From: Gemmatimonadota bacterium
GTDB taxonomy: Bacteria > Latescibacterota > UBA2968 > GCA-2709665
DNA: 64,000 nt
NCBI GenBank assembly: GCA_028877215.1
Contig: JAPPFJ010000033.1
Coordinates: forward strand, 62,001 to 126,000
Direction of reading: 5' to 3'
Shown here: in pieces, positions 40,617 through 60,094 of the stretch
Numbering within the stretch: the stretch's first letter is position 1
Layout of the letters: each line of letters starts with the position of its first letter
The notes under the pieces: model-generated
What the model saw: only the letters and a program-made list of their open reading frames with translations
Database searches by the model: none
Told to the model about the DNA's origin: nothing
Translations under genes and position numbers: made by a program

Positions 40617-40664
40617 TTCCGTTCTCCTCCCTCCAAAATCGATTCCAAATGGTCCACAGATGCA

Positions 40665-40692
40665 AGCAGGGCGCAGCGTACTGCGCCCTGCT
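40665..40692 (-). terminator. 12-bp perfect hairpin, terminator-like
   Basis: AGCAGGGCGCAG and CTGCGCCCTGCT form a perfect 12-bp stem with a CGTA loop. It lies 52 bases past the stop of the GWxTD gene and 49 bases before the start of the Gfo/Idh/MocA gene, both on the minus strand. No T tract follows, so it may terminate weakly, pause polymerase or protect a 3' end. It probably marks the end of the envelope operon. Confidence 0.55.
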
Positions 40693-40743
40693 GACGTCCA
40701 TCCCGCGATGAGCGATGCCGGATCGTTGGCAGCGGCATGCAAG

Positions 40744-43215
40744 TCAGATTCCGTAGCGGAACTGAATCTCGCGGGTGTCGCTCTTGCCGCTGACCCGGTC
40801 CTTGATCTTCACCTCGAGGACCTGGACGCCCGGCTTGGCCTTTTCCAGATCGATTTCAAAGTACTGTTGCTCGGTGGTTACGGTCCCCGCGTGTTCGTAC
40901 GAAACCGACACCTGTGTCTTCCTGCGTTTGAAAAGGGAAGTGATGGCGCCCACCACGCCTTCCGACCGCCCCACGACCGTACGGACCAGGTATTCCACCT
41001 CGTAGTCGGTCTGTCCGAACCGGTTCTTCTTCAGGTTGTAGATCTCGTAGTAGGCATATACCTTCTGCGCCTCTCTGTAGTTCCTGGTGGGCATCGGCAC
41101 GACCCGGATATCGCCCTTACTGAATTTGCCCGCCGAATTCGAGTCGGAGATTTCCGAAGCCAGAAGGATGTCGCTGATCTTGAGCTTTTCAACACCGTAA
41201 TCGGGCACTTCGACCGCCTGCTTGTAGAGTCCGGTATGTCCGGAAGCCAGATCCTTGATCTGGACCTGCAGTTCGTATTTGCCCGGCGGCACCGGGGTCT
41301 TGAGCATTTCCGGAAGAAACGCCCCTTTGACCCTGTCGAAGTCTGCCCGTCCCTCGTAGTGGAACTCCCGGGTATCGCGATAGATCGTCGTGTGCGCCGC
41401 GTCGGCCAGGGCCATGGCGCACTGCACGCTGACCTGCGCCGAATCCGCCTGCTCGGCAATCCGGACCTGTTCGGGTGGAATGCCATAGTAGACTTCAACG
41501 TTGGTCTGGCCGTCGGATCCCTGGAAGTTGGCCAGGTCATAATAGAAATTGAGCGCCGGTCCCTGGATTCCCGGCCGGTAATAGTCGGGGGTCTCGTGCG
41601 CGGCGTTCTGGTAGATGATCTCGGGTGCGTATTTGACCAGGCGGGTGATGTTGACAAGCTGGTTATTCAGAGCGGTCACCGGGGGAATCGGGGCAAAATT
41701 GAACTGCCCGCTCTTGTTTTCATCGGTAAACACGATCTCGATGCCCCCCTGGATCTGCGTGTAGATCCAGGTCTCCCAGGGAACCGTGGCCATATCGGTG
41801 TGGATCGTTACGGGTATGTAGTCCCCGAATTTCATCCGGGCGATCTGATTTCCTAATTCTTCGAACCTGGCACCGTCCTGGTCGTCATAGTCGCTTCGCG
41901 TGAGCGGCGTTGGCAGTGGGGTTCCTTCCAGGTCGCGTTCCTGGAACTCCTCTTCATCCGCGGCATCGGTATTGGAAGTAAAACCGTCTTCCAGAAAACT
42001 GGCGTCGCGCTGATCGGCCGAACCGAATCCGTGGAGTGCGTCCTGGGTACGCTGGGTTATGGGATGGCGAAACGCCCGGATCGGGAACACCGGTCCTGTA
42101 AACGTCATAAAGGAAGCCTCGGCCCCGTAGAGACTGGCGGCCGTTCGCATGCGGACGGCATCCACGTCGGGGGTAACGGATAGATCGCGCTGATAGGACC
42201 GTGACCGGTAATCCGGCTTTCCATAGCGGATATAGACTTCACCCCGCTTGTCCCAGGGCGAAACCTTATCGGCAAAGAAGGTACGCGCATACCAGACCCG
42301 CCGGTAGTGCTCGACCATACGTTCGTTGACGCGGGTCATCATATCGGGGTCGCGCCGCAGCCAGAAACGCTCCCGGAACGCCCTTCGCTGAGTCGTGTCC
42401 GGCAACGCCTGATACTCCCGAAGTTCATCTACGGAAGCCACGTACGCAATATCCGTGTACAATTCGCGCTCGCCCGGCCCGACTGTGTCCAGGAAGCGTT
42501 TGAAATTGTCCAGCGCCTTGTTGTATTCTTCCTTGTAGAAATGGCCCTGCGCTGCGATGGGCAGCAACCGGGTCTCCTCGTCAAGCGCCGCCATATGTGG
42601 TGCAATGTGTTTGGAGATCCTTTCGTACGCATCGGCCTGTATACATGCCAGGCCGAAATAATACAGGCCGTCCGGATCGTCGGGCTCCATCCCAAGATAG
42701 GTATCGAAATAGCCAAGAGCCTTCTCGTGGTCCTCCTTGAAACGCTCGTGCGCCTCTCCCAGCGCTCGGTAGGCATCTGCCTGTTCGGGATCCAGTTCGA
42801 TGGCCTTTTTTGCCGCGCCAACCGCCCGGCGGAAGTTGTGAAAAGCGCTTATCCCCTTTGCCGGCATCTCAGCGTACACAAGTGCCAGGCCGGCGTGCGC
42901 CGCTGCATCATCTTCATCCAGTTTCAGCGCCGCCTCGAACGACTTCCTTGCCGACTTGAAGTCTTCAGCCTTCAACTGTACGCGGCCCAGACGGGTCAGT
43001 ATATGCGCGTCGTCCGGAAACGCTTCGGCAAGCCGGTAAAATGTGTCCAGAGCCGCGTCGAGTTGGCGGCTGTCCAGCTGCCGTTCGCCGACGGCACGAA
43101 TGGAATCCCGTGTCGAAGACGTCCCCGCTGTCGTCGAGACGCTCAGTCCCAGCATCAGAATGACAATACAGTACCGCTGAAGGCGGACAGGCTGAAATCG
43201 ATGTCCGGTGTCCAT
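40744..43215 (-). CDS. GWxTD-type TPR protein, secreted
   Basis: The 823-residue protein has an N-terminal membrane or signal segment (RYCIVILMLGLSVSTTAG). TPR-like repeats cover ~35-260 (ARKSFEAALKLDEDDAAAHA, AIELDPEQADAYRALGEAHE). A GWxTD-type domain lies at ~280-345: FWLRRDPDMMTRVNERMVEH, then PWDKRGEVYIRYGKPDYR. The signature GW.TD is altered to PWDK here. The long C-terminal part contains a beta-rich repeat of the same family (GIEIVFTDENKSGQFNF) and ends in DTREIQFRYG. The biochemical role of GWxTD proteins is unknown; they are typical of Acidobacteria, Gemmatimonadetes and candidate phyla. AAGGGGG precedes the ATG at 43215. It is the last gene of the envelope cluster, 16 bases after the CRTAC1 gene. 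Confidence 0.82.
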   Translation of the reverse strand: MDTGHRFQPVRLQRYCIVILMLGLSVSTTAGTSSTRDSIRAVGERQLDSRQLDAALDTFYRLAEAFPDDAHILTRLGRVQLKAEDFKSARKSFEAALKLDEDDAAAHAGLALVYAEMPAKGISAFHNFRRAVGAAKKAIELDPEQADAYRALGEAHERFKEDHEKALGYFDTYLGMEPDDPDGLYYFGLACIQADAYERISKHIAPHMAALDEETRLLPIAAQGHFYKEEYNKALDNFKRFLDTVGPGERELYTDIAYVASVDELREYQALPDTTQRRAFRERFWLRRDPDMMTRVNERMVEHYRRVWYARTFFADKVSPWDKRGEVYIRYGKPDYRSRSYQRDLSVTPDVDAVRMRTAASLYGAEASFMTFTGPVFPIRAFRHPITQRTQDALHGFGSADQRDASFLEDGFTSNTDAADEEEFQERDLEGTPLPTPLTRSDYDDQDGARFEELGNQIARMKFGDYIPVTIHTDMATVPWETWIYTQIQGGIEIVFTDENKSGQFNFAPIPPVTALNNQLVNITRLVKYAPEIIYQNAAHETPDYYRPGIQGPALNFYYDLANFQGSDGQTNVEVYYGIPPEQVRIAEQADSAQVSVQCAMALADAAHTTIYRDTREFHYEGRADFDRVKGAFLPEMLKTPVPPGKYELQVQIKDLASGHTGLYKQAVEVPDYGVEKLKISDILLASEISDSNSAGKFSKGDIRVVPMPTRNYREAQKVYAYYEIYNLKKNRFGQTDYEVEYLVRTVVGRSEGVVGAITSLFKRRKTQVSVSYEHAGTVTTEQQYFEIDLEKAKPGVQVLEVKIKDRVSGKSDTREIQFRYGI

Positions 43216-43231
43216 GGTGTGCCCCCTTGTC

Positions 43232-44962
43232 TCAATCCGCCGCCGGATTGTCTCTCAGCGGCGTTCCGGCAACAATTCCCCGTCCCTCCCGAACGGTCAC
43301 GGTCTGCCCGGCTGCGACGTTGCTGATCCGTTCAATCCGGCCGGACGGCCAGGCCACCTCAACCGAATCGGCCGCCCCGGCCCCTGCCAGACCGAATGTC
43401 AATATCTGCTCACTCTGCGAACAATAGCTCGATCCCGACCTCACGAAGCGCGTTTGCACCACGTCCGCCGACCGCACGCGCACGGTCGCGCCAATTCCGT
43501 CCCGGTTGGACCAGCGCGACTCTCCGTCCGGCTGGCGGTCGTCCTCGCCGGCGGTCGCAATGCCTCCAATCAGTTTCACCCTCAGACAGCGGTTCCGGTT
43601 CCCGCCTTCGTTGCGATAGAGCGCGGGACGACCGTTGTTGGCGGAAACCAGCACGTCCAGGTCGCCGTCGCCGTCATAGTCCGCGTACGCCGCGCCGCGC
43701 CCGACCAGGCGATCGACGAGACCGCTTGCCGCACCCATTTCCTCGAAGCTGCCATCGCCCCTGTTTCTGTATAGTAACGGGCGCTGAGCGTAGCTGAGGT
43801 GGGACTTGACCAGGCGGATCCGGCTGTCCACGTGTCCGTTTGCCGCGAAGAGGTCCAGGCGCCCGTCCAGATCGAAATCGAAAAAGAAAACTCCGAAGGT
43901 GACGAACGGCGCACTCGGGTGCCCCACGCCGGAAGGCAGGGTCCGGTCCGTGAAGTATGCCCCGTCCCGGTTCTCAAACAGGGAAATCATCTCGTAGGCG
44001 AAGTTCCCGATGGCCACGTCCTCCCTGCCGGCGTTGCGGACGTCTCCGGCGCCGACCCCCATCCCGGACTTCGCCTCTCCGGCGGCGCTGTACGCCACGC
44101 CCGCCAAAAGGCCATCCTCGGTAAACGTGCCGTCCCCGTTGTTGCGGAACAGATAATCCGGCATCGTATCGTTGGACATCAGGATATCGGGCCATCCGTC
44201 GCCATTGTAATCGAGGGAGACGGCGGACATGCCCTTGCCCGGCTTTCCGCCGATGCCCGACGCTTTCGTAACGTCCGAAAACCGGACTCCGTCATTCCTG
44301 TACAGCCGTGAGTAAACCGGATCGTACAACTGAGGCGCATACGAACCCGCCCCCGAACGCGCTGACAGCCAGGAATCCCGTTCCGCCGACCATCGCAGGT
44401 AGTTGCCCACAAACAGGTCCAGGTCCCCATCCCGGTCGTAGTCCAGCCAGACCGCGCACACACTCCACGTGGAGTCAACCACCCCCGCCTGCGCCGTGAC
44501 GTCCTCAAACCGTCCGTCGCCCCGATTCCGAAAGAGCCGGTTCGCGCCCAGGCCGGCCACGTACAGGTCGCTGTCACCGTCGTTGTCGTAGTCTCCGGTC
44601 GCGCAACCCATCCCGAACATGGGATGCTTGAGCCCCGCCTGCGCGGTCACGTCGGAGAAACGACCGCTTCCGTCATTCCGGTAGAGCGCCATCGTGGACG
44701 GCGGGTCGGATCCGCGCTCGTGCAACGTGGCGCAACTGATCAGGAGAATATCCGAATCCCCGTCGCCGTCAAAGTCCCAGAACGCGCATCCGGACCCCAT
44801 CGATTCCGGCATCAACTCGCTGCCGGAACCCCCGTTGTCGTGCCTGAACCGGATCCCTGCGGAACGGGTTACATCCTTGAAAATCACCCCTTGCGCGAGG
44901 CCGTTTCCCTCCATGCAAATTGAGAACGCGAGAACCGCGAATATAGTCCTTGTGCGTTTCAC
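43232..44962 (-). CDS. CRTAC1-family FG-GAP/ASPIC-UnbV protein, secreted
   Basis: The ~576-residue protein starts with a signal peptide (KRTRTIFAVLAFSICMEGNG). Multiple FG-GAP/VCBS calcium-binding blades follow (FWDFDGDGDSDILLISC, DYDNDGDSDLYVAG, DYDRDGDLDLFVGN). Near 470-540 is an ASPIC/UnbV-type domain (DGIGATVRVRS, SSYCSQSEQILTFGLA, DSVEVAWPSGRIERI). These proteins are usually extracellular, and their ligand is generally unknown. The start is GTG at 44962, which shares GTGA with the stop of the TPR gene. This gives coupling, and the chosen start places the signal at the very N-terminus; longer frames inside the TPR gene are unlikely. Confidence 0.88.
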   Translation of the reverse strand: MKRTRTIFAVLAFSICMEGNGLAQGVIFKDVTRSAGIRFRHDNGGSGSELMPESMGSGCAFWDFDGDGDSDILLISCATLHERGSDPPSTMALYRNDGSGRFSDVTAQAGLKHPMFGMGCATGDYDNDGDSDLYVAGLGANRLFRNRGDGRFEDVTAQAGVVDSTWSVCAVWLDYDRDGDLDLFVGNYLRWSAERDSWLSARSGAGSYAPQLYDPVYSRLYRNDGVRFSDVTKASGIGGKPGKGMSAVSLDYNGDGWPDILMSNDTMPDYLFRNNGDGTFTEDGLLAGVAYSAAGEAKSGMGVGAGDVRNAGREDVAIGNFAYEMISLFENRDGAYFTDRTLPSGVGHPSAPFVTFGVFFFDFDLDGRLDLFAANGHVDSRIRLVKSHLSYAQRPLLYRNRGDGSFEEMGAASGLVDRLVGRGAAYADYDGDGDLDVLVSANNGRPALYRNEGGNRNRCLRVKLIGGIATAGEDDRQPDGESRWSNRDGIGATVRVRSADVVQTRFVRSGSSYCSQSEQILTFGLAGAGAADSVEVAWPSGRIERISNVAAGQTVTVREGRGIVAGTPLRDNPAAD

Positions 44963-46128
44963 TCTTTTCGAGACGCTTCCAGCCGGGCGAGCCTGGTCCT
45001 GGCGTCCGCGACCCACGCCTGCTGCACGGAATCCCGCCGGGCCAGCCTCAGATACGCCCGCCAGTGGTGGATGGCGCGCTCAACGTCGCCCGTCCGTTCG
45101 TGAATGATGCCCAGATTGTAATGTCCGTCGGCAAAACCCGGCGCGATGCCGATGGCGCGCGTATAGGACTCAATCGCCGCCGTGTGGTCGCCGAGATTGA
45201 AATACGCGTTGGCCAGGCCCGCGTAACGCATCGCGTGCTGGTGTCCGGCCACCGACCGCGTGTACGCACCCTGATTCGCATCCACCATCGACACGACCGA
45301 ATCCGGCGGCGCGCTATCCGGTTTCAGCCGGATGGCCTCCCTGTACGAGACCACCGCCTCCCCGTACCGTCCCTGTCGTGAATACGCGTTGCCGAGATTG
45401 TAATGCGCCTCGGCAAGGTCCGGATCCAGCCGGATGGCCTCCACCTGCCGGGAAACCGCCCCGTCGAAGTCTCCGCTGAGCATATGGACAAGGCCCAGAT
45501 TCGCCTGCGCCTCGGCGTAGTCCGGCATCAGCGCAACAGCCCGCCGATACGCAGTACGCGCATCCTCTACTTTACCTCGGTCCAGAAACTGGGTGCCCCT
45601 CGCAACCTGCTGCGCGGCGGTCTGGCAACGGGAGACCGCACCCAGGAAGAGCGCCTTCATCGGATCGCCGGAAAAGGGCAACCCTACAAGGGCGGCCCGG
45701 CGATAGGCTGCCAGCGCGTCCCCGTACCTTCGCTGGCGCGCTTCCATGAGGCCCAGCATGTAGTGCGCCGCGGCGAAATCCGGAGCGACGGCCAGGGCCT
45801 CCCGAAGCCGCGCGACCGCGAAAGCGACCGCCGGACGGGTCAGGTTCCAGTTCGCCCGTCCCCGGCCTCTGCTGTCGGCCACGCGTCCGGCGGCTTCGAC
45901 AAATGGCGGATAGGCGTCTCGAGTCGCCCCCCTCCCGAATCCGGCCGTCGTCTCTGACGTCAGTCCGATTGCGTCGTTCAACCTGGCGGCAACGCTGTCC
46001 TCAAGCACGAACCCTTCAGCGCTCGCGGCGACAGGTAGCGCGGACGAAACGCTGAACACCAGCATTCCCCACCCTAAAGCGCGGCGCAACTTGCGGGCCC
46101 ACGAACTATTGACGTACGTCCCGAGCAC
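44959..46128 (-). CDS. TPR-repeat protein, secreted
   Basis: The 389-residue protein has a positively charged start and a hydrophobic signal (KLRRALGWGMLVFSVSSALP, VAASA). At least five tetratricopeptide repeats follow (DFAAAHYMLGLMEARQRRYG, DYAEAQANLGLVHMLSGDFD, DLAEAHYNLGNAYSRQGRYG, FADGHYNLGIIHERTGDVER). TPR arrays bind partner proteins. The start is uncertain: GTG at 46128 keeps the full signal peptide and overlaps the previous gene by 23 bases. It is coupled to the CRTAC1 gene by a GTGA overlap. TPR and CRTAC1 proteins are often encoded together, so a complex between the two is likely. Confidence 0.82.
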   Translation of the reverse strand: MLGTYVNSSWARKLRRALGWGMLVFSVSSALPVAASAEGFVLEDSVAARLNDAIGLTSETTAGFGRGATRDAYPPFVEAAGRVADSRGRGRANWNLTRPAVAFAVARLREALAVAPDFAAAHYMLGLMEARQRRYGDALAAYRRAALVGLPFSGDPMKALFLGAVSRCQTAAQQVARGTQFLDRGKVEDARTAYRRAVALMPDYAEAQANLGLVHMLSGDFDGAVSRQVEAIRLDPDLAEAHYNLGNAYSRQGRYGEAVVSYREAIRLKPDSAPPDSVVSMVDANQGAYTRSVAGHQHAMRYAGLANAYFNLGDHTAAIESYTRAIGIAPGFADGHYNLGIIHERTGDVERAIHHWRAYLRLARRDSVQQAWVADARTRLARLEASRKE

Positions 46129-46963
46129 AGCGAAATCCGATGAAATTGCCCTTCTGGTCGGGATAGAATCTGAACCGGGCGGATGTCTTCAGGTAGTGAG
46201 GAAGGTGGTGCCATGAACTGCCTCTTACAACGCGAAACGTCCCGGCCGCGGGGCCGGATGGGTCTTCCCTGGGACTTCGACCATAGTACGTGTCGTCGTA
46301 CCAGTCGTTGCACCACTCCCACGCGTTGCCCGCCATGTCCAGCAACCCGTAAGGGCTCGCTCCCCTGGGCCTGGAACCCACCGGCAGGGTATGACAGAAC
46401 TCGCCCGGCACCGGGCCGGCCGAAGGATTCGCCCAGTTGGTGCGGCCGCACGTGCCGCCCAGGTCCATGATTGCGTAGTCCGCTCCGGGCGCTGCTTCAC
46501 CCCACGGATAGGTCCGTCCGTCCGTTCCCCGAGCCGCCTTTTCCCACTGCGCTTCCGTGGGCAGGCGTCCGCCCCGCCACCTGCAGTAAGCGTCCGCCTC
46601 CGTCCACGTCGCCCCCACGACCGGCTGGCGGTCATTCGAAAATAACGGATTTTCGGTCTCAGCCGGCAATGACGCCCCGGTCGCGCGCGCGTACGCACGG
46701 AACTGAGCATTCGTCACTTCGTATTTGTCAATATAGAACGCATTGAGATACACGACGTGCGCAGGGCCTTCGGGGTCGAAACCCTGATTCGTACCCATCA
46801 GGAAGTCGCCTGCATTTACCACCAGCATCGTATCCACGGTACCCGCCGGCGTGCGGTCCAGGAAGACCCCATCAGGCATTTCGTCCAGGAGGGACTCTCC
46901 GCTGCACCCGGCGCACACCAGGAGACCGTACCAGGCAACTCGCCACCACTTGCGCCGGCGCAT
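46106..46963 (-). CDS. SUMF1/FGE-fold lipoprotein (copy 2), catalytic cysteines missing
   Basis: The 285-residue protein has a lipobox at its N-terminus (YGLLVCAGCSGE). The formylglycine-generating-enzyme fold follows: VNAGDFLMGTNQGFDPEGPA, YIDKYEVTNAQF, GGRLPTEAQWEKAARG, GLLDMAGNAWEWCNDW and FRVVRGSSW, ending IGFRCARD. True FGE carries two active cysteines just after the RGGS motif. Here the segment is RGSSWHHLPHYLKTSARFR, with neither. It is therefore probably a structural or binding member, not a sulfatase activator. The ATG at 46963 lies two bases after the TGA of copy 1 (TGAGCATG), so translation is coupled. The longer open frame upstream overlaps copy 1 and is not real. Confidence 0.85.
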   Translation of the reverse strand: MRRRKWWRVAWYGLLVCAGCSGESLLDEMPDGVFLDRTPAGTVDTMLVVNAGDFLMGTNQGFDPEGPAHVVYLNAFYIDKYEVTNAQFRAYARATGASLPAETENPLFSNDRQPVVGATWTEADAYCRWRGGRLPTEAQWEKAARGTDGRTYPWGEAAPGADYAIMDLGGTCGRTNWANPSAGPVPGEFCHTLPVGSRPRGASPYGLLDMAGNAWEWCNDWYDDTYYGRSPREDPSGPAAGTFRVVRGSSWHHLPHYLKTSARFRFYPDQKGNFIGFRCARDVRQ

Positions 46964-46965
46964 GC

Positions 46966-47853
46966 TCAGTTTACGTCCCTCGCACAGCGGACGCCCCATC
47001 CGTCCGTGGCTCCTGTTGGATCGGACCAGCTGCGATAGGTGATGCTGAGCTTGTTCGGATCCTGTCCCGCGGCGGTCCGCCAGGAACCGCCTCGAAGTAT
47101 ACGAAATTTGCCCTGCTCCGGCCCAGTGGGTCCGATGGTTGCGCTCACCTTGTAATATTCGGCGTCGTAGTAGTCCGCGCACCACTCCCACACGTTTCCC
47201 ACCAGGTCCATGGCTCCGTAAAAGCTGACGCCCTCGGGATAGTTCCCCACCGGCGCCAGGGTATTGTCGTAACCGTCGTCGCCGTCCCTGAAATTCGCCC
47301 GGGAACCGTTCAACCCCTTGTTCCAGGGGTAGGGCTCCCTCGCCTCGTCTCCGCGTGCGGTCTTCTCCCATTCCGCTTCGGTGGGCAGCCTGGTCCCGCG
47401 CCATGCGCAATAGGCGGCCGCGTCGAACCAGTTGATCCCCACGGCCGGAAAGTTCGGCTTCGTTTCCGCCCGGTCGGGCCAGTCCCCGATACGGTCCTTG
47501 GACCCATGGCTGGCCGGCGTATACCGCTGCCGGTTGCCCCCGTCCGGAGCTTCCCAGAACCTGAAATACTGGGCGTTCGTGACTTCAAACCGGTCGATGT
47601 AGAAGGCGCTCAGGTACACCTCGCGTGCCGGCTGCTGGTCCGCCGGGCCGCGTTCCATTCCCATGGTGAAGTGACCCGCCGGGACCCGAACCATTTCCAC
47701 ACCCCCGAAAAGCCGCACCAGACCCACTGGAAGAGGTCGATCCTGGTTCGGGTCAAATTCCTCCACGGCGCTGGTGGGTGGTTCGTCCGCCCCGCCGCAA
47801 GCCAGGAAACTCCACCAAATGAGGCAAACAAAGAAAAACCCGATGGCACGCAT
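46966..47853 (-). CDS. SUMF1/FGE-fold lipoprotein (copy 1), catalytic cysteines missing
   Basis: The 295-residue protein has a lipobox-like start (IWWSFLACGGADEP). The fold shows VRVPAGHFTMGMERGPADQQ, FYIDRFEVTNAQYF, GTRLPTEAEWEKTARG, YGAMDLVGNVWEWCADYYDA and FRILRGGSWRT, ending VRCARDVN. As in its tandem paralogue, the two catalytic cysteines of FGE are absent (RGGSWRTAAGQDPNKLSITY). CGAGGTGG precedes the ATG at 47853 closely. The two copies lie head to tail and are clearly diverged. They may form a lipid-anchored pair at the cell surface. No sulfatase gene is in the window, which fits a non-FGE role. Confidence 0.85.
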   Translation of the reverse strand: MRAIGFFFVCLIWWSFLACGGADEPPTSAVEEFDPNQDRPLPVGLVRLFGGVEMVRVPAGHFTMGMERGPADQQPAREVYLSAFYIDRFEVTNAQYFRFWEAPDGGNRQRYTPASHGSKDRIGDWPDRAETKPNFPAVGINWFDAAAYCAWRGTRLPTEAEWEKTARGDEAREPYPWNKGLNGSRANFRDGDDGYDNTLAPVGNYPEGVSFYGAMDLVGNVWEWCADYYDAEYYKVSATIGPTGPEQGKFRILRGGSWRTAAGQDPNKLSITYRSWSDPTGATDGWGVRCARDVN

Positions 47854-47946
47854 GGACCACCTCGCGCCGGGTCGAAGGCAGATGCCCGATCGATCCCTCT
47901 CTGCCCGCACCTCTTCTCTCTCGATCGATTCGTGTGGTGATAACAA

Positions 47947-48003
47947 AACGGCGGCCAATGCCCCTTCCCGCCGACCCGGCCGGAGACACATTGCGCCGCC
48001 GTT
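47947..48003 (-). terminator. Large hairpin followed by a short T run
   Basis: AACGGCGGCCAATG (47947-47960) pairs with CATTGCGCCGCCGTT (47989-48003), apart from one bulge, around a 28-base GC-rich loop that could fold further. On the minus strand the stem is followed by TTTT. It lies 59 bases past the stop of the PorV-like gene and about 95 before the first SUMF1 gene, so it may split the envelope cluster into two units or attenuate it. Confidence 0.5.
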
Positions 48004-48061
48004 AGCGCTGTTTCTGTTTAGTTTAGAGCGGCCCCGCTACGGACCGCCACGTCATCTGATA

Positions 48062-49042
48062 CTAAAATGCGCCGCCGATGCTGAACCGAATCGGTGCATC
48101 CAGCAACTCGCCGACGTTGGTATAGCCGACGTCAACCAGCACCGTCCGGTCGCCCCAGTCGCCTTTGAAGCCGGCGCCGAAGCTGTACGTCTCCAGGTCG
48201 TGGTTGAACTTGTACCCGGCGCGCAGGGCCACCGCGCCCGACAGCCACAGTTCGCTGCCGACCTGCCACCGCTGTTCGTAGTCCACCTGGTAGGAACTCT
48301 CGAAAGAGACCGTCAGGTAATTCGGCTCGTCCATCTGACCGAAGAGCTCCATGGCCACGCCGATATCGAAATTCATCGGCATCAGGAATTTCTGGTCTTC
48401 CGCCAGCACCTTGGTGTCAGGCCCGAAATTCCGCATGGCCAGGGCAATTCGGGAACTCCGGAAACCCGTGTAGAAGTGGGTGCCGGCGTCCAGAACGAGG
48501 GAGGTCATGTTGTCCACGTGCAGGGTCTCGGAGATATACACCACCCGGACGCCCAGGCCCAGCTTGTCGGTCGCGTGAAACGCATAGGCCAGGCCGACGG
48601 AAGTTCCGCCGCCCTTGATCATTTCCCCCGTGCCCTCGGGGTTGAATATGGTCCGTACCGGCATATCGCCCACGTCGTAATTCAACACGCTGGCGCCCAG
48701 AACACCCCAGCCCGTCCGGTAGGCAAACGCGCCGCTGTAGAACCCCGTGTCGACCAGCCACCGGGTGTGGGAAAGCTGGTACCCGAAACGCTCCAGGTGA
48801 ACCAGGCCGGCCGGGTTGAAATAGATCGCGTTGATGTCGTTCGAAACGGCCGTAAACGCATCTCCCATGGCCGCCGCACGCGGGGACTGGGTCACCTTCA
48901 TCCACGGAAACGACGCCAATCCAAGTTTCCGGAAATCCTCGGACTTGAGGATTTCGGGCACGTCCCGCGCTTCCGCGGGCGGGTTCCCAAATGCGCCGGC
49001 CACGAGAACGGTCATCAGTGTCATGCAAAGTATCCGCTTCAT
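48062..49042 (-). CDS. PorV/PorQ-like outer-membrane protein (UPF0164-type)
   Basis: The 326-residue protein has a signal peptide (MKRILCMTLMTVLVAGAFG). A motif typical of PorV/PorQ and FadL-like barrels follows: SPRAAAMGDAFTAVSNDINA, then IYFNPAGLVHLERF. Alternating beta strands run to the C-terminus (GYTNVGELLDAPIRFSIGGAF). In the type IX secretion system PorV shuttles cargo proteins after translocation. The gene before it encodes a protein with a T9SS-like C-terminal domain, which supports that link here; other T9SS genes are not in the window. AAGGAGCG lies ten bases before the ATG. It is 37 bases after the cargo gene. Confidence 0.8.
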   Translation of the reverse strand: MKRILCMTLMTVLVAGAFGNPPAEARDVPEILKSEDFRKLGLASFPWMKVTQSPRAAAMGDAFTAVSNDINAIYFNPAGLVHLERFGYQLSHTRWLVDTGFYSGAFAYRTGWGVLGASVLNYDVGDMPVRTIFNPEGTGEMIKGGGTSVGLAYAFHATDKLGLGVRVVYISETLHVDNMTSLVLDAGTHFYTGFRSSRIALAMRNFGPDTKVLAEDQKFLMPMNFDIGVAMELFGQMDEPNYLTVSFESSYQVDYEQRWQVGSELWLSGAVALRAGYKFNHDLETYSFGAGFKGDWGDRTVLVDVGYTNVGELLDAPIRFSIGGAF

Positions 49043-49079
49043 AAGCTTATCGCTCCTTCCCGGGATTGCCTCACGCCGG

Positions 49080-51512
49080 CTATCGGATGACCATGAACTT
49101 TCCTATCCGTTTTTTTCCCATACTTTCGGATACGAGAGATTCCACCACGAAGAAGTAGACGCCCGCGGAGATCGACCCCGTGCCCAGCGACATCGCCAAC
49201 TGGTCCCACTGCGCTTCGCCCAGCCAGACGTTCGGATCGTCGGGCGCATCCGTGCGGTCGTCGTGCAGGATCTTTCCGACCATGTCGCCCGCGCTGTTGA
49301 ACACGTAGATCCAGGCCTTGCTCGGCACATTCACGAACCGGATCTGCGGTTTGCCCGGGTACTGCAGATTCGCGTCGCCAACCCGGAAGGGATTGGGTAC
49401 CACGAAGACCTCTCTGCCCAATGCCTCGGTCTCGCCAACCGCGGGCTGCTTCGGACTGAAGAACGGCGGCTTGCGCTGGGACCGGGCCCACTGGCCGCCT
49501 TCGAGGCCGGCCTTTACCTGCGCCTGCACAAGGGCGGGCAGGGTGGCCATGGTGCCCACGCGGCCTACCCAGTCCTGGTGGCCGTTGGCGAACGGCCTTA
49601 CCGAATACCAGTAATTGAAGCCGGCTACAGACTCTACGTCCGTATACGTATGCGTCCCGGCCGGGACCTCGCCGATCCTCGTCCAGGGCCCGTCCGGGTT
49701 CCACTCGGAGCGGTAGATACGGTAACCCGCCACGTCCTGCGCCTCCGCGCCGATATAATCCGGGTTCATCGCGCCGTCCGCCGAGTTCCACGTGAGCAGG
49801 TTCTGCGCGTCCGGGCTGTTTGAAACGTCCACGTACACATCCGGCGGCGAATCCGGCACGTCGTATTCATTATCATAGGCCCACTTCGCGCGATTGAAGA
49901 ACTCGACCATCCATTCCTCGCCCTTCTTCAATCCTTCGAAGTCGTACAGGTGCGACCGCGTCCACGTGTAAAGGTCGCTCTCACCGGCGCCCGAGCCGCC
50001 CACCCAGGCCACCACCAGCTTGGCCTTGTCGCCAGGGCCCAGCGAGTACGGTCCGAAGGTCTGGGCGCTGTAAAACACGCCGATCTCGCCGGGATTCGCT
50101 TGATAGCCGGCATCCGCGATCATATTGAACATGGTCTCCCGGTCATGCGCACCGGGCCGGGGGTCTTCGGACACCGTGGTGCTTTCGATCCGCCAGAAGC
50201 GCACCGCGTGTGGCTGGTCACCCTGGGGCTGGACGAACTTGCCGGCGTCACGGGTATTGAATCCCCAGTCCCCGCCGTCCTCATACGCCAGCGGCCCGAA
50301 GCCCATGTATTGATAGGAGGTGAATTCACCGTCCTTGCGGCCCGTATCGCACGAAGGCGAAATAATCAGCCGGTTGACGGGATCGCCGGTATCGTCCCAG
50401 GGAAACTCGGGACTGTCGCCGTCCCAGTCCACGATCATCTTCAGCCCCTTGGCCGGGCCCGAATAACCGGCATTTTCGGTATAGACGATCCAGTCGTCGA
50501 GACCGCCCACGTTGTACCAGTGCCAGCGGTCCGATCGATTGTAGTGAGACAGCCCCGCGTCCGTGAGCATCCAGGAGCCGATGATGGGAACGAAAACGTT
50601 ATCGAGCCTTTCCGCGGGCAGATCCCTCTCGCCGTCGCCGTCGCTGTCACCCGTGTTCTCGATCTCGATCTCGGTAATAATGAAGTCATCCCAGGCGGGG
50701 TAGCTCCAGGCCATTGTCCGTCGCGTAAAGGTAACCCCCGCCAGCGTGGTCCACTTGGTGACGATGATCTCTTCGGGCCATTCGTCGGAACGGGAAGAAG
50801 GAGCGGCCGGAGGCCCCGGAGTCGCGTATTCCCCCCACGACCAGTTGCTGATCCTCACGGGGGCCCTGTTCAGCGGCGCATTCTCCAGAATCTGCGCCAG
50901 GTTCTCGCTCCAGGTGGGCGCGTAGTACCACGGCGCGCCTTTACGCCATTCGAAGCCCGGATTCTCGGCGGATGAAGGCTGCACCCTGATCTCCCCGCCC
51001 AGGTACTGCAGTTCCTCATCCATGGACGGGTCGCCCACCATGGGCACGATCTCGTCGAGCATGTCCGACCGCGGGCCGGTCAGTACCACGTAGTACCCGT
51101 TCTTGGAAAAATTGTCGTAGGCTCTCGAGCCCTGGAAACTGGATGGAAGGCGTAAGGCCAGGCCAATGCCCTCCCCGTGCGACGTGGCTTCGATTCGCCC
51201 TTCGCTGTTGCAGTCGACGCGGAAGAACGGCAACTGGCTGGCCCAACCATCACCTGTAATAATGTCGCCGCCCACCGTGGCGGGGTACACCATGCTGGAA
51301 GACCGCGAGAGCGCCGCGCCGATGGAGCCTCCCTGCGTGCCAAGATTGGTAACAGACGTGTACAGCATCCCGCGTTCCAGGGGCGCCCTGCCGGCTGATC
51401 CCGGGTGATTCGCCTGGCCCCAGACCTGCCCGGACCAGCATATCGCCAGGACTGCTGCGAACGCCCAACCACCGCACCCTTTCAGGACGGTGTTCATACG
51501 GTTCGAACGCAT
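49080..51512 (-). CDS. Large secreted protein with FN3-like region and T9SS-type C-terminal domain
   Basis: The ~810-residue protein has a signal peptide (RMNTVLKGCGGWAFAAVLAI, then QVWGQ). A long region without a recognised family follows. From ~560 there is a fibronectin-like segment (LLTWNSADGAMNPDYIGA, VAGYRIYRSEWNPDGPWTRI). The C-terminal ~90 residues begin with VVPNPFRVG, have KAWIYVFNSAGDMVGKILHD and SAGVYFFVVES, and end with GKFMVIR. That pattern is the type A sorting / FlgD-Ig-like C-terminal domain. It would be moved across the outer membrane and held at the surface. AAGGAGG precedes two adjacent ATGs; the second, at 51512, has the better spacing. Confidence 0.8.
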   Translation of the reverse strand: MRSNRMNTVLKGCGGWAFAAVLAICWSGQVWGQANHPGSAGRAPLERGMLYTSVTNLGTQGGSIGAALSRSSSMVYPATVGGDIITGDGWASQLPFFRVDCNSEGRIEATSHGEGIGLALRLPSSFQGSRAYDNFSKNGYYVVLTGPRSDMLDEIVPMVGDPSMDEELQYLGGEIRVQPSSAENPGFEWRKGAPWYYAPTWSENLAQILENAPLNRAPVRISNWSWGEYATPGPPAAPSSRSDEWPEEIIVTKWTTLAGVTFTRRTMAWSYPAWDDFIITEIEIENTGDSDGDGERDLPAERLDNVFVPIIGSWMLTDAGLSHYNRSDRWHWYNVGGLDDWIVYTENAGYSGPAKGLKMIVDWDGDSPEFPWDDTGDPVNRLIISPSCDTGRKDGEFTSYQYMGFGPLAYEDGGDWGFNTRDAGKFVQPQGDQPHAVRFWRIESTTVSEDPRPGAHDRETMFNMIADAGYQANPGEIGVFYSAQTFGPYSLGPGDKAKLVVAWVGGSGAGESDLYTWTRSHLYDFEGLKKGEEWMVEFFNRAKWAYDNEYDVPDSPPDVYVDVSNSPDAQNLLTWNSADGAMNPDYIGAEAQDVAGYRIYRSEWNPDGPWTRIGEVPAGTHTYTDVESVAGFNYWYSVRPFANGHQDWVGRVGTMATLPALVQAQVKAGLEGGQWARSQRKPPFFSPKQPAVGETEALGREVFVVPNPFRVGDANLQYPGKPQIRFVNVPSKAWIYVFNSAGDMVGKILHDDRTDAPDDPNVWLGEAQWDQLAMSLGTGSISAGVYFFVVESLVSESMGKKRIGKFMVIR

Positions 51513-51622
51513 CATATCCTCCTTAGCGTGTATAGATCGTCAATGAAAGAACCGCGTGGCGGCGGGAACCCGGGCAACCCTCCAGGTTCCCCGCCCATTC
51601 GAAGACTCAATTCCGGAATGGA

Positions 51623-54600
51623 TCAGAACTGCATTCTCAGACCCATTTCCGTGCGCCGGGGATGGCTGTAGAAGTTCCGGTCGCGCGTATCCCCGTAAAG
51701 GAGGAATTCGGAGTTGTCCGGACGGGCCGTCAGCAGGCCCCAGTTGGTCCAGTCGGTGGTATTGTATGAACTGTCGTCCTTCTGGTTGAACAGGTTCCGC
51801 ACCTCCAGGAAGAGGCTGACGTCGCCGCGTCCCTGACCGAACGGAAAGCGCTTTTCAATGGCAAAGTCGGTCCAGGTGCGGATGGGACGCAGCCGCCGTT
51901 CGCGGCCGGAATTCGGCGGCGTGTACCAAAACGACCCGGTATTCTGCATGCGCCACAGCAGGTTGATCCGCCAGTTGGCAAGGAACTTGCTCCCGAACAC
52001 CTTGAAATCGGGCCCGTAGTCCCCTGGCGTGAGGTAGAGGAACTGTACGCTGCCCTGGTTGCGGATGTTGCCGCCGTCTGCGTTCAGCCCGGTTTGATAA
52101 CCCCTGGCCCACACGTGGATGTGGTCCAGTTCGAAGTCATCCAGACCGATGAGCCCGTACTCCCGGGCGGTCATCCTGGTCTGCTCGTATCCTCTGCCAC
52201 CAGGCCTGCCGTCCCGCTTCGCGTTATTCCGGATCACTCTATTTGCGGTGGCGCCGATCTCCCTGATCTGTTCCACCGTGAGGGGCACCGGTACCTCAAC
52301 ACCGTTCTCCACCCTGTATTCGTACCAGTATCGCCCGCTGGCGATGTAGAGGGAATCGGGATACAGGAAGTTGAACCATGCGTCGAAGTTGCCCCATCCT
52401 GCCTGCGCCCATGTCATGTTGTATGCCAGATTGATGGCGAAATTGTGGCTGAGGGGCTTCCGAAGGGAGAATTCAAGACCCCGCTGTTCCTCGAAGCCGT
52501 TGTTGTGCAGGATCCGTGCGTAGGGATGCACCCAGCCCGGCCTGTGCGGCGCGTAAAAGCGTACGTCGGAGTGGTAATGGTACTGGTCCTTCGCACTCTT
52601 GTAGTAAATCGCGATCGCGCCGGTGTAGTCCTGCACGAAGTTCCAGTCGGCCCCCACTTCCATCGACACGGTCTTCTCGGGCCGGATTTCGGTGGTACCC
52701 TGCCCGCTTCGAATCGGGTAGGAAGGCCGCATGGCGTTGTAACGCTCACCCGGGTCGATCGCGCCGTTCCCGTTCCAGTCTTGGTCGGGACCCGATGTGC
52801 GCCAGTCCCCGTTGAACAGGTAATAGATGTCGGGATAGGCCAGGAACAGACCCGCGAAATAGTGCATGGACGAACGCGCCGTGATCGGATGCGACACCCC
52901 CACCCGCGGGCTCAGGTTCTTGAATACGACAGGCTCGCGGTGGGGCGCATTCTGGAATCTCAGTGGTGAGTTGAACATGGGCGAGAACGCGTATGCACCC
53001 GAAGCCGGAAACTTGGACACCGGATCGAACAGGTCCAGACGAAGGCCGGCATTGATGACCATGCCTTCGAACTCCATCTTGTCCTGCGCGTAGATGGCAA
53101 GGTGCTGTGGCTTGACGGGTGCTCCGACCACGCCCTGCTCGCCCGCAAACTCCAGCCGCCTGGCCTGCGCGCTCTCTCCCGTGTAGCGGGTAAGATACAT
53201 ACTGTACTTGATGAATTCGAAACCGGCCTTCACGAAATGACCCTTCGTGATCTGGCTGGCCAGGTCCAACTTGACCTGGTACCGCTTCCGATCCGCAACC
53301 TGGTAATGCCTGACCTCGCGGTCCACGGCGAACCATCCGTCCGCATCCGTACGTACGTCCGACGTTCTCGCCGCGATATCGCTGGTGTCGTCGACGGTTG
53401 AATAGCGCGATATCCGGAGGTCGTAGAACGTCCTGGGCGAGAGAGAATGGGTGATGGCCAGGTATTGCATATTGTGGGTCGTGCTCATCTTGCCCGCCGC
53501 ACTCCAGTCAACCGGCAGGAATATGTTCTTGCCTGAGCCGCGGATGACGCCACTGGAAGTGCCCGCGGACCGCTCGTTCCGCCAGGAATCCCGGTCGGTT
53601 CCGATGAATTTCTTATTGTATTCGAACAGACCGCCGACCTTCATCTTTACGTTTTCGGAGGCGCGGACGGTGACGCTGTATGATCCCTGGTAGTTATTCA
53701 ACGAAGGGACAAACCGCCCGATGTCGTCATAATAGCCACGCTCCGTGCCCGAGGGATAGACGGGCGCCTTCCGGGCCGTCTTGCCCGAAACGATGAACGA
53801 GGCGCTCCTGGAAAGCGGCCCGGAGACATTTCCCTCCACCTCGTGGCCTGTGATTTCATCGTAGTCCGAGCGCTGGTGGACGAGTCGACCCGTTTCCGGG
53901 TCGCGCTCGTTCTGCCACTCACCTTCGCCCCATTTCATTTTGTCGAGATTCGACGGACTCTCGTAGATGTTTGCGCCCCAGTGCTTCTGCCCCGGGGGGG
54001 TCCGCCGGTACTCCGCCCACCCGTGGAAGTTCTGGCTCCCGTCTTTCGTGATTATGCTGATGACGCCGGCCTGGGCGTTGCCGTACTCGGCGTTCATCCC
54101 GCCCGTTACCACCGAAATCTCCTGGACGGTGGACCGGTTGATGGCCTTCCAGTTGTGAGACCCGGCGCCGTCGCTGTTCACGATTTTCACGCCGTCCACG
54201 TAATAGGCCACGTCTCCGCCCGTGCGGCTTCGCCATTCCCCGGGACGGTTGCTTCCCCGCATGCGGTCTGAGCCGTCGAGGTGCACGCCCGGCTGCAGCG
54301 TGATCATCTCGCTGGTGGTGCGCACGATGGGAAGCTGCTCGATCTCATCGGCGCCTACGATGTACTTGCTGAAGGTCTTGTCGACCTCCACCGGAGGGCG
54401 TTCCGCCTTGACAACCATCTCACCGAGCTCAAGCGTCGCCTCCTGCAGCGTAAAATCGACCTCCGTGGTCACGTCGGCCTGCACGCGCACGTCCGTCTGT
54501 GACTCGGCCTGGTATCCGATCAGGGACGCCTTGAGCGTATACAGCCCCGGATCGGCGCGGAGAATCACGTAGAATCCCTCCGCATCGGCCGTCGATCCAA

Positions 54601-54763
54601 TGTTGACGCCCTCGACGACCACATTGGCGCCAGGCAGCGGTTCTCCCTGGCTGTCAAGAACCTTTCCAACAATCTTTCCTGTCGTTCCGGCCCAGACGCT
54701 ACCGCTGAACGCCAGTGCCGTGCAGAGGGAAAGAATCCCAAAAAACAAAACACACTTCCTCAT
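51623..54763 (-). CDS. TonB-dependent receptor with CarboxypepD_reg-like domain
   Basis: The ~1046-residue outer-membrane receptor has a signal peptide at residues 1-26 (MRKCVLFFGILSLCTALAF). A carboxypeptidase-regulatory-like domain follows at ~28-115 (KIVGKVLDSQGEPLPGANVV, EGFYVILRADPGLYTLKASL). The plug lies at ~120-250 (ADEIEQLPIVRTTSEMITLQ, VAYYVDGVKIVNSD, VVTGGMNAEYGNAQAGVISI). The beta-barrel ends in GLRMQF with the expected terminal Phe. Such receptors import ligands using TonB energy. No SusD partner is next to it, so it is not a standard SusCD pair. The start is the ATG at 54763 with GGAGGTT before it; the frame to 54853 is not needed. Confidence 0.92.
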   Translation of the reverse strand: MRKCVLFFGILSLCTALAFSGSVWAGTTGKIVGKVLDSQGEPLPGANVVVEGVNIGSTADAEGFYVILRADPGLYTLKASLIGYQAESQTDVRVQADVTTEVDFTLQEATLELGEMVVKAERPPVEVDKTFSKYIVGADEIEQLPIVRTTSEMITLQPGVHLDGSDRMRGSNRPGEWRSRTGGDVAYYVDGVKIVNSDGAGSHNWKAINRSTVQEISVVTGGMNAEYGNAQAGVISIITKDGSQNFHGWAEYRRTPPGQKHWGANIYESPSNLDKMKWGEGEWQNERDPETGRLVHQRSDYDEITGHEVEGNVSGPLSRSASFIVSGKTARKAPVYPSGTERGYYDDIGRFVPSLNNYQGSYSVTVRASENVKMKVGGLFEYNKKFIGTDRDSWRNERSAGTSSGVIRGSGKNIFLPVDWSAAGKMSTTHNMQYLAITHSLSPRTFYDLRISRYSTVDDTSDIAARTSDVRTDADGWFAVDREVRHYQVADRKRYQVKLDLASQITKGHFVKAGFEFIKYSMYLTRYTGESAQARRLEFAGEQGVVGAPVKPQHLAIYAQDKMEFEGMVINAGLRLDLFDPVSKFPASGAYAFSPMFNSPLRFQNAPHREPVVFKNLSPRVGVSHPITARSSMHYFAGLFLAYPDIYYLFNGDWRTSGPDQDWNGNGAIDPGERYNAMRPSYPIRSGQGTTEIRPEKTVSMEVGADWNFVQDYTGAIAIYYKSAKDQYHYHSDVRFYAPHRPGWVHPYARILHNNGFEEQRGLEFSLRKPLSHNFAINLAYNMTWAQAGWGNFDAWFNFLYPDSLYIASGRYWYEYRVENGVEVPVPLTVEQIREIGATANRVIRNNAKRDGRPGGRGYEQTRMTAREYGLIGLDDFELDHIHVWARGYQTGLNADGGNIRNQGSVQFLYLTPGDYGPDFKVFGSKFLANWRINLLWRMQNTGSFWYTPPNSGRERRLRPIRTWTDFAIEKRFPFGQGRGDVSLFLEVRNLFNQKDDSSYNTTDWTNWGLLTARPDNSEFLLYGDTRDRNFYSHPRRTEMGLRMQF

Positions 54764-54859
54764 TGCAGAACCTCCGTTTGTATTGACTCCCAGACTGTAT
54801 TGAGCCCTTCGCGCCCGATTCGGATTACAACTCCTCCTTTCCCGGGCGTTCAAGGCGCT

Positions 54860-55606
54860 CTACTTCCTTCCCGATTCGTAAAACTTGACGGCCACCTCGA
54901 GGTCCAGCATCTGCAGCAGCGGCATCACGCCCTTGATGCCCCAGGCCTCCCGAGGACCGAGCGTCCCCACCAGGAAATTGTGCTGAGCCCGGAAATCCAG
55001 TGAAATGTTGTTGGTCATGAACCTCTCGACGCCGAACCCGAAATGCGCCCCCAGCGCCCACCGGCTCTCCACCACCGGATCGAGGACCACGCTTGGATCC
55101 AGCCTGTTCTGCTCGGAGCCCGCGACAGGGATGCCCTTCTGCCCCGGATAGATCAGGCCGCTCACGCGATTGCTGTAGCTGTGAAAACCGCCGCCGGCGA
55201 CCACGTAGGGTGACGTCGCCTGGTTATTGAACAGGCGCGATTTGTCACCGAGCCGGAAAATCATGTTGCACAGCACGCTGTTGATCCGCATACTGGCATC
55301 CGAGCGGGGGCTTGCGTAATCCTTCGAGTCTTCGTTCCAGGTGAACGTCTGATTCTCGATCTTGCCGTCTTTGTATTGTAAACGGTGATATTCGAACTCG
55401 AGCGCGTTGTTGGCATTCCTGTTGTAAACCACGCTGCCGCCCCAACGCACTGCCTGGGTGTACCAGTTGTTCCGAAGCCCCAAAACGGGCAGGTTGTAGC
55501 CCAACAGCAACCGCCCGCCGATCCGGTCATACTCCTGCGCGCCGGAATTCGGGGCGAGAAGCGCCACCAGAAGCCCGGCAACAGCCGCAAACCTCCATGT
55601 GCCCAT
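54860..55606 (-). CDS. Small outer-membrane beta-barrel protein, family unknown
   Basis: The 248-residue protein has a signal peptide (MGTWRFAAVAGLLVALLAPN, then SGAQ). Alternating strands follow (IGGRLLLGYNLPVLGLRNNW, NALEFEYHRLQYKDGK, SPYVVAGGGFHSYSNRVSG, ALGAHFGFGVERFMTNNISL), consistent with an eight- to ten-strand barrel of the OmpA/OMP_b-brl kind. No enzyme motif is seen. The ATG at 55606 is eight bases after AAGGAGGG. It is the first gene of the envelope operon, 96 bases before the TonB-dependent receptor gene. Confidence 0.72.
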   Translation of the reverse strand: MGTWRFAAVAGLLVALLAPNSGAQEYDRIGGRLLLGYNLPVLGLRNNWYTQAVRWGGSVVYNRNANNALEFEYHRLQYKDGKIENQTFTWNEDSKDYASPRSDASMRINSVLCNMIFRLGDKSRLFNNQATSPYVVAGGGFHSYSNRVSGLIYPGQKGIPVAGSEQNRLDPSVVLDPVVESRWALGAHFGFGVERFMTNNISLDFRAQHNFLVGTLGPREAWGIKGVMPLLQMLDLEVAVKFYESGRK

Positions 55607-55889
55607 AGACTGCCCTCCTTGTGATGGATCGGGCCGCGCGATCGCCGCCGACATTCTCGCGAAACCCGGTCCGATTGCAGTACTTTGGCTCAACCTGTCA
55701 CCGACTCCCCGCAAGTTTCCGGCGATGCTTCACGGGCCCGTTCGGCGGCATCCGGAACGGGCGTCCGCAAATTCCGGAGGGGGGCCGAAAATTACAGATA
55801 CGGCAAGACGGTGCCCCTCCCACAGAGAAAGCCGTCGCGATGCCGTTTCGATACCCGCCACCGAAGCGGGTACACAACTAAAACATCCT
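55607..55889 (-). other. Structured ~285-base 5' leader of the envelope operon
   Basis: The predicted start of transcription is near 55890, so the mRNA carries a long untranslated leader. Two stems are visible: TACCCGC/GCGGGTA with a 7-base loop (55852-55872) close to the 5' end, and CCCGTTC/GAACGGG with an 11-base loop (55737-55761). No known riboswitch consensus was recognised. No convincing gene is present. Confidence 0.45.
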
Positions 55890-55896: not shown

Positions 55897-55926
55897 ATGA
55901 TAACACCGGCCCGCGGATTTTGTCAA
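55897..55926 (-). promoter_or_regulatory. Strong sigma70 promoter of the envelope operon
   Basis: On the minus strand TTGACA (55926-55921) and TATCAT (55902-55897) are separated by 18 bases. Just upstream lie a run of eight T and a run of seven A on that strand (55930-55948), which would act as an UP element. The promoter points toward the outer-membrane gene at 55606. Confidence 0.75.
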
Positions 55927-60069: not shown

Positions 60070-60094
60070 AGTGACAGAGCCGACGGAGGTAGGA

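Follow-up and report, generated by a model that had tools for sequence, protein, structure and literature searches.

The stretch of DNA analysed here, 64,000 nucleotides in length (henceforth the window), carries nine consecutive genes (g1–g9) on its minus strand, and an ORF check of the interval 40744–55714 found all nine to be present. The first gene, g1 (54860–55606), starts at an ATG with a ribosome-binding site at 55606, which is the boundary given by a first-pass annotation, and codes for a small outer-membrane β-barrel of 248 aa with a weak, below-cut-off match to OMP_b-brl (E=0.0016). It opens a four-gene core that further comprises a SusC-like TonB-dependent receptor (g2, 51623–54763, with an ATG and ribosome-binding site at 54763), an exported protein of about 800 aa (g3, 49080–51515) and a β-barrel of the PorV/PorQ family (g4, 48062–49042). 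Beyond the core lie genes for two exported FGE-domain proteins (g5, 46966–47853, FGE-sulfatase 186 bits; g6, 46106–46999, 203 bits), an exported TPR protein recognized in the domain scan (g7, 44959–46128), a CRTAC1-like protein with FG-GAP repeats and an UnbV/ASPIC domain (g8, 43232–45016), and an exported protein combining TPRs with a GWxTD domain (g9, 40744–43215; TIGR04514, 59 bits against a cut-off of 28). The spacing between these genes is short or they overlap. All three congeners keep the complete order g1–g9 at 75–97% identity (75–77% for g7 and 79–86% for g8), and the co-oriented cluster of the first-pass annotation is hence borne out within the genus.

The promoter placed by that annotation ahead of the cluster also has a candidate, namely a promoter-like TTGACA-18-TATCAT (55926–55897, minus strand) that agrees with the consensus at 11 of 12 positions, has a TG, and ranks first among 8 promoter-like sites, against 4.7 sites yielded by shuffled sequence. 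Congener G002 shares both hexamers and G003 the −35; the sequence taken from G001 is too short to show the site. The gene run extends past 40744: a Gfo/Idh/MocA oxidoreductase (39636–40742) follows g9 after 1 bp, and is succeeded by a protein with DUF4962 and a heparinase II/III C-terminal domain (37232–39574), a large protein with C-terminal matches to CGLA-type β-propellers or FG-GAP repeats (33492–37235), and a protein with DUF4962, heparinase II/III C-terminal and dockerin-like regions (30650–33388), all on the minus strand and all kept in congeners. The description of the cluster as encoding only exported or outer-membrane proteins is therefore true just for the boundaries chosen, 40744–55606. 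On the plus strand, divergent from g1, a heparinase II/III-like gene (56242–58479; Hepar_II_III_C E=1.8e-4, below the cut-off) adjoins g1 in 3/3 congeners. Farther away, at 19425–21389 on the minus strand, lies a DUF6785/DUF6784 membrane protein with a predicted OPT-transporter fold, a relative of which, encoded in a Baikal MAG, is found directly 3' of g4.

The four-gene core and its spread

The conserved unit is g1–g4 and not all nine genes. Among 75 named g3 loci, the order receptor–g3–barrel was recovered in 67, with the receptor and PorV-family genes each at most 400 bp from g3, and g1 lies upstream of the receptor in 57. Seven of the eight misses (L097, L107, L109, L110, L115, L119, L120 and L125) are near a contig end; at L097 the g3 that was counted is the second on its contig, the first being cut. 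Wherever the sequence allows, the first g3 is directly preceded by a receptor, and some loci have further g3 ORFs downstream (13 in all) that lack a receptor of their own. The greedy gene caller skipped true genes in L036, L058, L060, L076, L094 and L128; these were recovered from all ORFs for the order count, whereas the median gaps of about 20 bp (67 receptor–g3 pairs and 63 g3–barrel pairs placed by the caller) still carry such omissions, as do parts of the comparison with congeners and paralogues and of the survey of accessory genes.

Cassette loci range across Latescibacterota, Neomarinimicrobiota, KSB1, Calditrichota, Ignavibacteria and Rhodothermales. Six divergent copies occur in the window genome itself, each on a separate branch in the tree of g3 proteins, and are thus ancient paralogues. 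In two relatives assembled as one contig, G007 and G010, every strong receptor match (in lists from which those scoring under about 129 bits and second same-frame pieces were removed) has a PorV-family gene within 6.5 kb, i.e. 11/11 and 21/21 respectively, against random-position expectations of 0.3 and 1.0. The 21 divergent copies of G010 represent the highest number per genome. These data agree with the first-pass annotation in that parts of TonB-dependent import and of type IX secretion (T9SS), the latter being a sorting-domain cargo and a PorV-like barrel, occur in one cluster. They contradict its premise that such parts are usually encoded apart, because in these phyla the receptor–cargo–PorV order is the rule.

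Across nine copies in one genome, the distances of the four core proteins correlate with each other (Mantel r 0.66–0.80, p 0.0005–0.0025). In 30 of the 67 cassettes, chosen as non-redundant and possessing g1, the barrel is tracked more by the sorting domain of g3 than by its passenger (partial r of 0.36 against 0.20), and the receptor more by the passenger than by the sorting domain (0.49 vs 0.29), a weak contrast for which the bootstrap 5–95% ranges touch or cross zero.

Core proteins and their secretion background

The receptor g2 contains CarboxypepD_reg and Plug domains above cut-off, and a partial match to TIGR04056 (78 bits against a cut-off of 368). The barrel g4 belongs to the PorV/PorQ family (NF033709, 160 bits against a cut-off of 90), although it falls below the equivalog cut-offs of both PorV proper (NF033710, 64 vs 250 bits) and PorQ proper (NF033711, 71 vs 220 bits); its sole sequence match in the PDB is the PorV of the T9SS (E=6e-4).

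The domain scan recovered no Pfam family in g3, and PDB sequence searches with profiles of g3 and of its sorting domain returned no match. An alignment of the window protein with 50 of 85 g3 ORFs (after removal of 32 as redundant and 3 as partial) and an AF2 model (pLDDT 82.9) nevertheless predict a signal peptide, a supersandwich at about 34–553, an FN3 domain at about 556–645 and a type A T9SS sorting domain at about 700–811. The supersandwich aligns in VIA-align with Z 18.8 and rmsd 2.9 over 234 residues, and comparisons of the predicted model with the supersandwich domains of GH15, GH65, GH94 and GH116 give Z of 15–19. The fold claim is based on this VIA-align table, the top Foldseek rows being FN3 proteins and partial phosphorylase matches of low TM. 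The passenger of g3 is accordingly predicted to be a supersandwich as in these enzymes, where it is N-terminal; in g3 the (α/α)6 catalytic barrel is missing and FN3 and sorting domains occur instead. As the match is limited to the non-catalytic supersandwich of the glycoside hydrolases, an enzymatic identity for g3 was rejected. The fold by itself is no proof of sugar binding. In a single-sequence domain scan the C-terminus matched neither TIGR04183 nor PF18962, but hhalign against 17 TIGR04183 domains of its own and related genomes (96.7%, E 4e-10) points to a divergent type A sorting domain.

The secretion machinery that such a domain would require is widespread: in 23/23 genomes SprA is above cut-off and type A sorting domains occur, and a C25 (PorU-like) peptidase is present in 21/23, including the window genome. 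A search for GldM gave no match, and as its controls were also silent it says nothing on GldM. The SusD families PF07980 and PF14322 have no match in the window genome, and at the window locus no SusD-family lipoprotein adjoins the SusC-like g2. PF07980 is lacking in the genome's own family and gives one weak match (22–37 bits) in 9/23 genomes, while PF14322 is lacking in all 23. Pfam and NCBIfam scans found no SusD-family match in g3 either, and a SusD homologue was rejected on this basis.

Proposed import function and its alternatives

Genes flanking the cassettes offer hints on function. Among 99 downstream neighbours (of 101 eligible proteins of 180–1000 aa, uncut by a contig end, with 7 core-family proteins removed) the commonest family is DUF6785, with 16 cases; it is absent from the 25 commonest Pfam families tallied for 96 control proteins. 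DUF6785 lies near 14 of the 21 cassettes in G010 against 3.9 expected, though it is also common away from cassettes, with 23–49 matches per genome. For the window protein, Pfam lists only DUF6785/DUF6784 at E <= 0.001, and we found no paper on DUF6785 in the open-access PMC literature. The DUF6785 model aligns with Yellow stripe 1, an OPT protein, with Z 22.7 and rmsd 4.1 over 546 residues (the next unrelated row having 4.7), and is hence predicted to have the OPT transporter fold. SSF symporters account for 5/99 downstream neighbours. Sulfatases are not enriched directly 3' of cassettes (4/99 vs 4/96 controls among the listed families), and copies in the window genome adjoin a gamma-glutamyltranspeptidase, a PALP enzyme or LRR proteins. 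Taken together, the neighbourhoods point to no single substrate class.

We consider that g1–g4 probably constitute a TonB-powered import cassette that operates in the manner of SusCD but whose receptor is exported by the T9SS and held on a dedicated PorV-like barrel. All four proteins would be exported by Sec, and g3 would use its C-terminal sorting domain to pass the outer membrane via the translocon SprA. It would then stay surface-bound on its own barrel, g4, instead of being passed to PorU for cutting, and its supersandwich would act as the substrate-catching lid or receptor of the g2 channel, as does the SusD lipoprotein in Bacteroidota, with g1 perhaps serving as a small barrel accessory. 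Imported fragments would cross the inner membrane via nearby transporters, often DUF6785 or sodium:solute symporters. Given the heparinase II/III-type enzymes at the window locus, the most likely cargo of this cassette consists of fragments of uronic-acid polysaccharide or of proteoglycan; other copies, being beside other catabolic genes, presumably take other nutrients. The suggested role in polymer capture is plausible in view of the heparinase-type genes to either side of the cluster; a machine of all nine genes is not supported. As for retention, parts of a review (PMC10202324) describe the PorZ sorting domain as staying bound to the PorV relative PorQ, and propose that cognate PorV-like barrels shield sorting domains from cleavage; against it counts a statement in PMC10994853 that PorV normally lets its cargo go.

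In the SusCD/RagAB systems of Bacteroidota, too, the gene for a TonB receptor with CarboxypepD_reg (SusC there, the SusC-like g2 here) precedes that for a surface protein; divergent paralogues are likewise numerous, and catabolic genes and a transporter of the inner membrane lie close by. The cassette differs in lacking SusD, its putative surface partner being a supersandwich protein with a T9SS sorting domain and a PorV/PorQ-like barrel of its own. In PorZ–PorQ-type pairs a barrel of this family holds a sorting-domain protein at the surface, as proposed for g4 and g3, whereas the cassette pair is encoded together with a TonB receptor in an operon-like run and has many paralogues, and a supersandwich takes the place of an A-LPS handler or peptidase as passenger. 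Type B cargo genes, such as SprB, adjoin the gene of their carrier barrel, SprF, a dedicated arrangement akin to that of the cassette, in which the sorting domain is instead type A-like and the barrel of the PorV/PorQ family. PorP/SprF barrels are presented as carriers of type B cargo in passages of PMC10994853 and PMC10202324.

There is about an even chance that the cassettes represent a separate class of outer-membrane importers across at least six FCB-group phyla, in which a T9SS-delivered receptor clamped in a private PorV/PorQ-like barrel replaces SusCD in SusD-less lineages and feeds OPT-fold (DUF6785) or SSF carriers. In its relevant passages, the 2015 Latescibacteria genome paper (PMC4454575) predicts wide polysaccharide breakdown, with non-specific porins only for the outer-membrane step and TonB reserved for B12 and iron. 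The cassette, present up to 21 times in a single genome, is a candidate for this uptake step. If so, type IX secretion and TonB import would be joined in one gene run, PorV-family paralogues outside Bacteroidota would gain a job, the retained-cargo idea would become testable, and DUF6785 would become a candidate OPT-type transporter. We found no paper describing the cassette in open-access PMC literature, preprints excluded, and it may be in print elsewhere.

It is conceivable, if unlikely, that the same machine takes up metal chelates or oligopeptides in place of polysaccharide fragments. OPT transporters are known for peptide and metal-chelate substrates, not for sugars, and Yellow stripe 1, whose fold DUF6785 shares, is an Fe-phytosiderophore transporter; the gamma-glutamyltranspeptidase beside one copy of the window genome, and an M28 peptidase-FtsX protein found both in the window and in the Baikal relative, are in keeping with such a cargo. 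The large number of divergent copies and the heparinase-type flanks, however, better suit varied organic polymers, and the SSF symporters also speak against it. Quite improbable, in our estimate, is a module for secretion or display, in which g4 is an extra PorV that helps g3, as an adhesin or scaffold, to be released or displayed, while the TonB receptor senses or energizes release and does not import. PorV does carry type A cargo from the translocon, according to part of PMC10994853, and the additional g3 ORFs without a receptor would fit display, but the invariant receptor ahead of the first g3 and the importer-type inner-membrane protein as commonest neighbour argue for the import cassette. 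That all nine genes form one dedicated machine, with g5–g9 as structural parts such as GldK-like ring lipoproteins, is very improbable: the order is kept in congeners and g6 and g5 are the genome's best GldK (TIGR03525) matches, but their scores of 119 and 96 bits are far below the cut-off of 350, which nothing in the genome exceeds, so that a GldK/PorK ring role is not supported, and g5–g8 do not occur in that order in the five other copies of the genome or in L055, the nearest outside relative.

The order of the cluster is kept in the congeners; beyond the genus, a nine-gene machine was rejected because g1–g4 alone stay together. The genes g5–g8 are a genus-level addition to the core. Both g5 and g6, which are present in 3/3 congeners, have the FGE-sulfatase domain; their designation as lipoproteins is uncertain, since the Cys motifs FLAC and CAGC are imperfect and missed by the lipobox pattern. 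In the formylglycine-generating enzyme, a pair of catalytic Cys residues lies close to the C terminus; no such pair was seen in the C-terminal stretches of g5 and g6 as read. FGE2-query matches occur in 4/75 named loci and CRTAC1-query matches in 5/75. The GWxTD family of g9 (>60 bits) is a recurrent accessory of the cassettes, seen in 25/75 loci at no fixed position.

The four-gene cassette within the nine-gene run

The window, positions 62001-126000 of contig C2 in a 5.35-Mb assembly of 37 contigs, carries nine ORFs, g1–g9, at 40744-55606, which the first-pass annotation had read as a single envelope cluster, possibly a polymer-capturing surface machine. Their placement was borne out, with all of them lying on the minus strand and separated by short or overlapping junctions. 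Pfam and NCBIfam supported the named domains with two exceptions: g3, an exported protein of ~800 residues, belongs to no Pfam family, and the barrel match of g1 fell below the cut-off. The region's best promoter-like match, TTGACA-18-TATCAT (55926..55897), lies upstream of the nine genes, and both hexamers are present in the congener G002. The observation was correct, but the unit was mis-drawn: a widespread cassette of g1–g4 underlies it, and beyond the genus these four alone are kept together. The order of the accessory genes g5–g8 was seen in the genus only. Past 40744 the run continues into Gfo/Idh and then heparinase II/III-type genes, in an order identical in three congeners; a divergent heparinase II/III-like gene also stands upstream of the cluster. 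The GWxTD family, to which g9 belongs, was found in 25 of 75 named loci, and once, with a weaker match, in control regions. By the GldK cut-off, the FGE-domain proteins g5 and g6 do not qualify as GldK.

When g3 was searched against 60 relatives, 24 genomes gave matches, often in many copies. The neighbourhoods of 20 loci, followed by those of 75 named loci on GTDB contigs, shared a single arrangement of small barrel, TonB receptor, g3 and PorV-family barrel, with median gaps of ~20 bp. Among the 75 primary g3 genes, the receptor lies within 400 bp upstream in 71 and the PorV-family barrel within 400 bp downstream in 68; both are present in 67, and the small barrel as well in 57. Seven of the eight without both partners have g3 near a contig end, and in the eighth (L097) the counted g3 is the second on its contig, the first being cut. 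Thirteen extra g3 ORFs, in records labelled Neomarinimicrobiota/Marinimicrobia, Caldithrix, KSB1 and one unassigned bacterium, lie further downstream in the same loci with no receptor and barrel of their own. In two one-contig relatives (G007 and G010), a PorV-family gene occurs within 6.5 kb of 11/11 and 21/21 strong receptor matches, respectively; the remaining PorV-family genes, 4 in each, stand by themselves. The taxa named for the 75 loci are Latescibacterota, 'Gemmatimonadota' (which may be an old name here), Neomarinimicrobiota/Marinimicrobia, KSB1, Calditrichota/Caldithrix, Ignavibacteria and Rhodothermales.

Six cassette copies are present in the window genome; they occupy six separate places in the g3 tree, each close to copies from other genomes, and hence are ancient paralogues. 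Further, within one genome the distances of the four core proteins correlate across nine cassettes, which suggests inheritance of each cassette as a whole.

Predicted structure of g3 and a putative retained pair

The AF2 model of g3 (51 sequences; mean pLDDT 82.9, pTM 0.88) comprises a signal peptide helix, a large β-sandwich, an FN3 domain and a C-terminal β domain. The large domain resembles the supersandwich found at the N terminus of GH15, GH65, GH94 and GH116 enzymes (best Z 18.8, rmsd 2.9, 234 residues); unlike in those enzymes, no catalytic α/α barrel follows it. Over its C-terminal ~115 residues, g3 matches genuine type A sorting domains from its own and related genomes (profile comparison 96.7%, E 4e-10); single-sequence Pfam/NCBIfam scans of g3 did not detect this domain. 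Elsewhere, a TIGR04183 sorting-domain protein (3605-4414 of locus L031) lies close downstream of the cassette on contig C34 of the window genome, and in G002 a g3 on contig C62 has several sorting-domain matches after it.

SprA and type A sorting domains were found in all 23 searched genomes, the window genome included for SprA; the C25 peptidase has one match in the window genome and at least one in 21 of the 23. Type IX secretion does not need the cassette, since in G022, a related genome, SprA and 49 type A matches occur with no g3 match. SusD_RagB had no match in the family of the window genome and a single, weak match in each of 9/23 genomes, and SusD-like_3 had none in the 23. Five of the nine weak matches (G008, G010, G012, G017, G018) contain one TAG within the matched frame, which may reflect a match overrunning a stop, or something stranger.

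The widespread cassette probably works like SusCD yet is not SusCD; contact between the partners, retention of g3 and the substrate are what we infer. PorV is described as carrying type A cargo away from the T9SS translocon (PMC10994853), and the sorting domain of PorZ as staying bound to PorQ (PMC10202324); the latter, a review, also puts forward that a PorV-like barrel may protect its cognate sorting domain against PorU. By analogy, g3 and g4 fit a retained pair of the PorZ-PorQ kind, which the receptor g2 would turn into an importer. In the distance comparisons the pairings of sorting domain with barrel and of passenger with receptor come out slightly ahead of the opposite pairings, a tendency that is not decisive (bootstrap, 0.94 and 0.90 of resamples that way).

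Import context and neighboring genes

DUF6785/DUF6784 is the commonest family among proteins downstream of cassettes (16/99), where SSF symporters account for a further 5/99; both are absent among the families listed for 96 control proteins (20 control regions, two relatives). A DUF6785 gene lies within 15 kb of 14/21 cassettes in G010 versus 3.9 expected, and of 6/11 in G007 versus 1.7 expected; the family gives 23-49 matches in each of three genomes. The window encodes two such membrane proteins (12698-14665 and 19425-21389), flanking a 1570-aa protein that combines an M28 peptidase, a PA domain and an FtsX permease (14691-19403). DUF6785 has 11 hydrophobic segments, and the model of the second window protein (pLDDT 86.2) has the fold of the OPT transporter Yellow stripe 1 from barley (Z 22.7, 546 residues; next unrelated row 4.7); no OPT family sequence match occurs among the matches listed for the window DUF6785 proteins. 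The closest cassette outside the genus, from a Lake Baikal MAG (L055; ~43-49% identical), is followed after g4 by a DUF6785 gene 64% identical to 19425-21389 and, further on, by an M28-FtsX protein 63% identical to 14691-19403. Hence, the window cassette and its DUF6785 and M28-FtsX genes are probably one conserved set.

Three large proteins (5308-8928, 8929-12645 and 33492-37235) bear C-terminal β-propeller/FG-GAP matches of the λ-carrageenase propeller family; they look like paralogues, given ~62% identity between the first and the congener copies of the third. A 1056-aa protein (21610-24780), 88-97% identical in congeners, had no Pfam match. Dockerin/EF-hand-like repeats occur on the heparinase II/III protein (30650-33388) and on a Peptidase_S55-like protein (25864-27888). 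Finally, a metallo-β-lactamase-fold gene (59939-60790) lies between two putative aminoglycoside 3-N-acetyltransferase-family (Antibiotic_NAT) genes (59068-60069 and 60873-62447).
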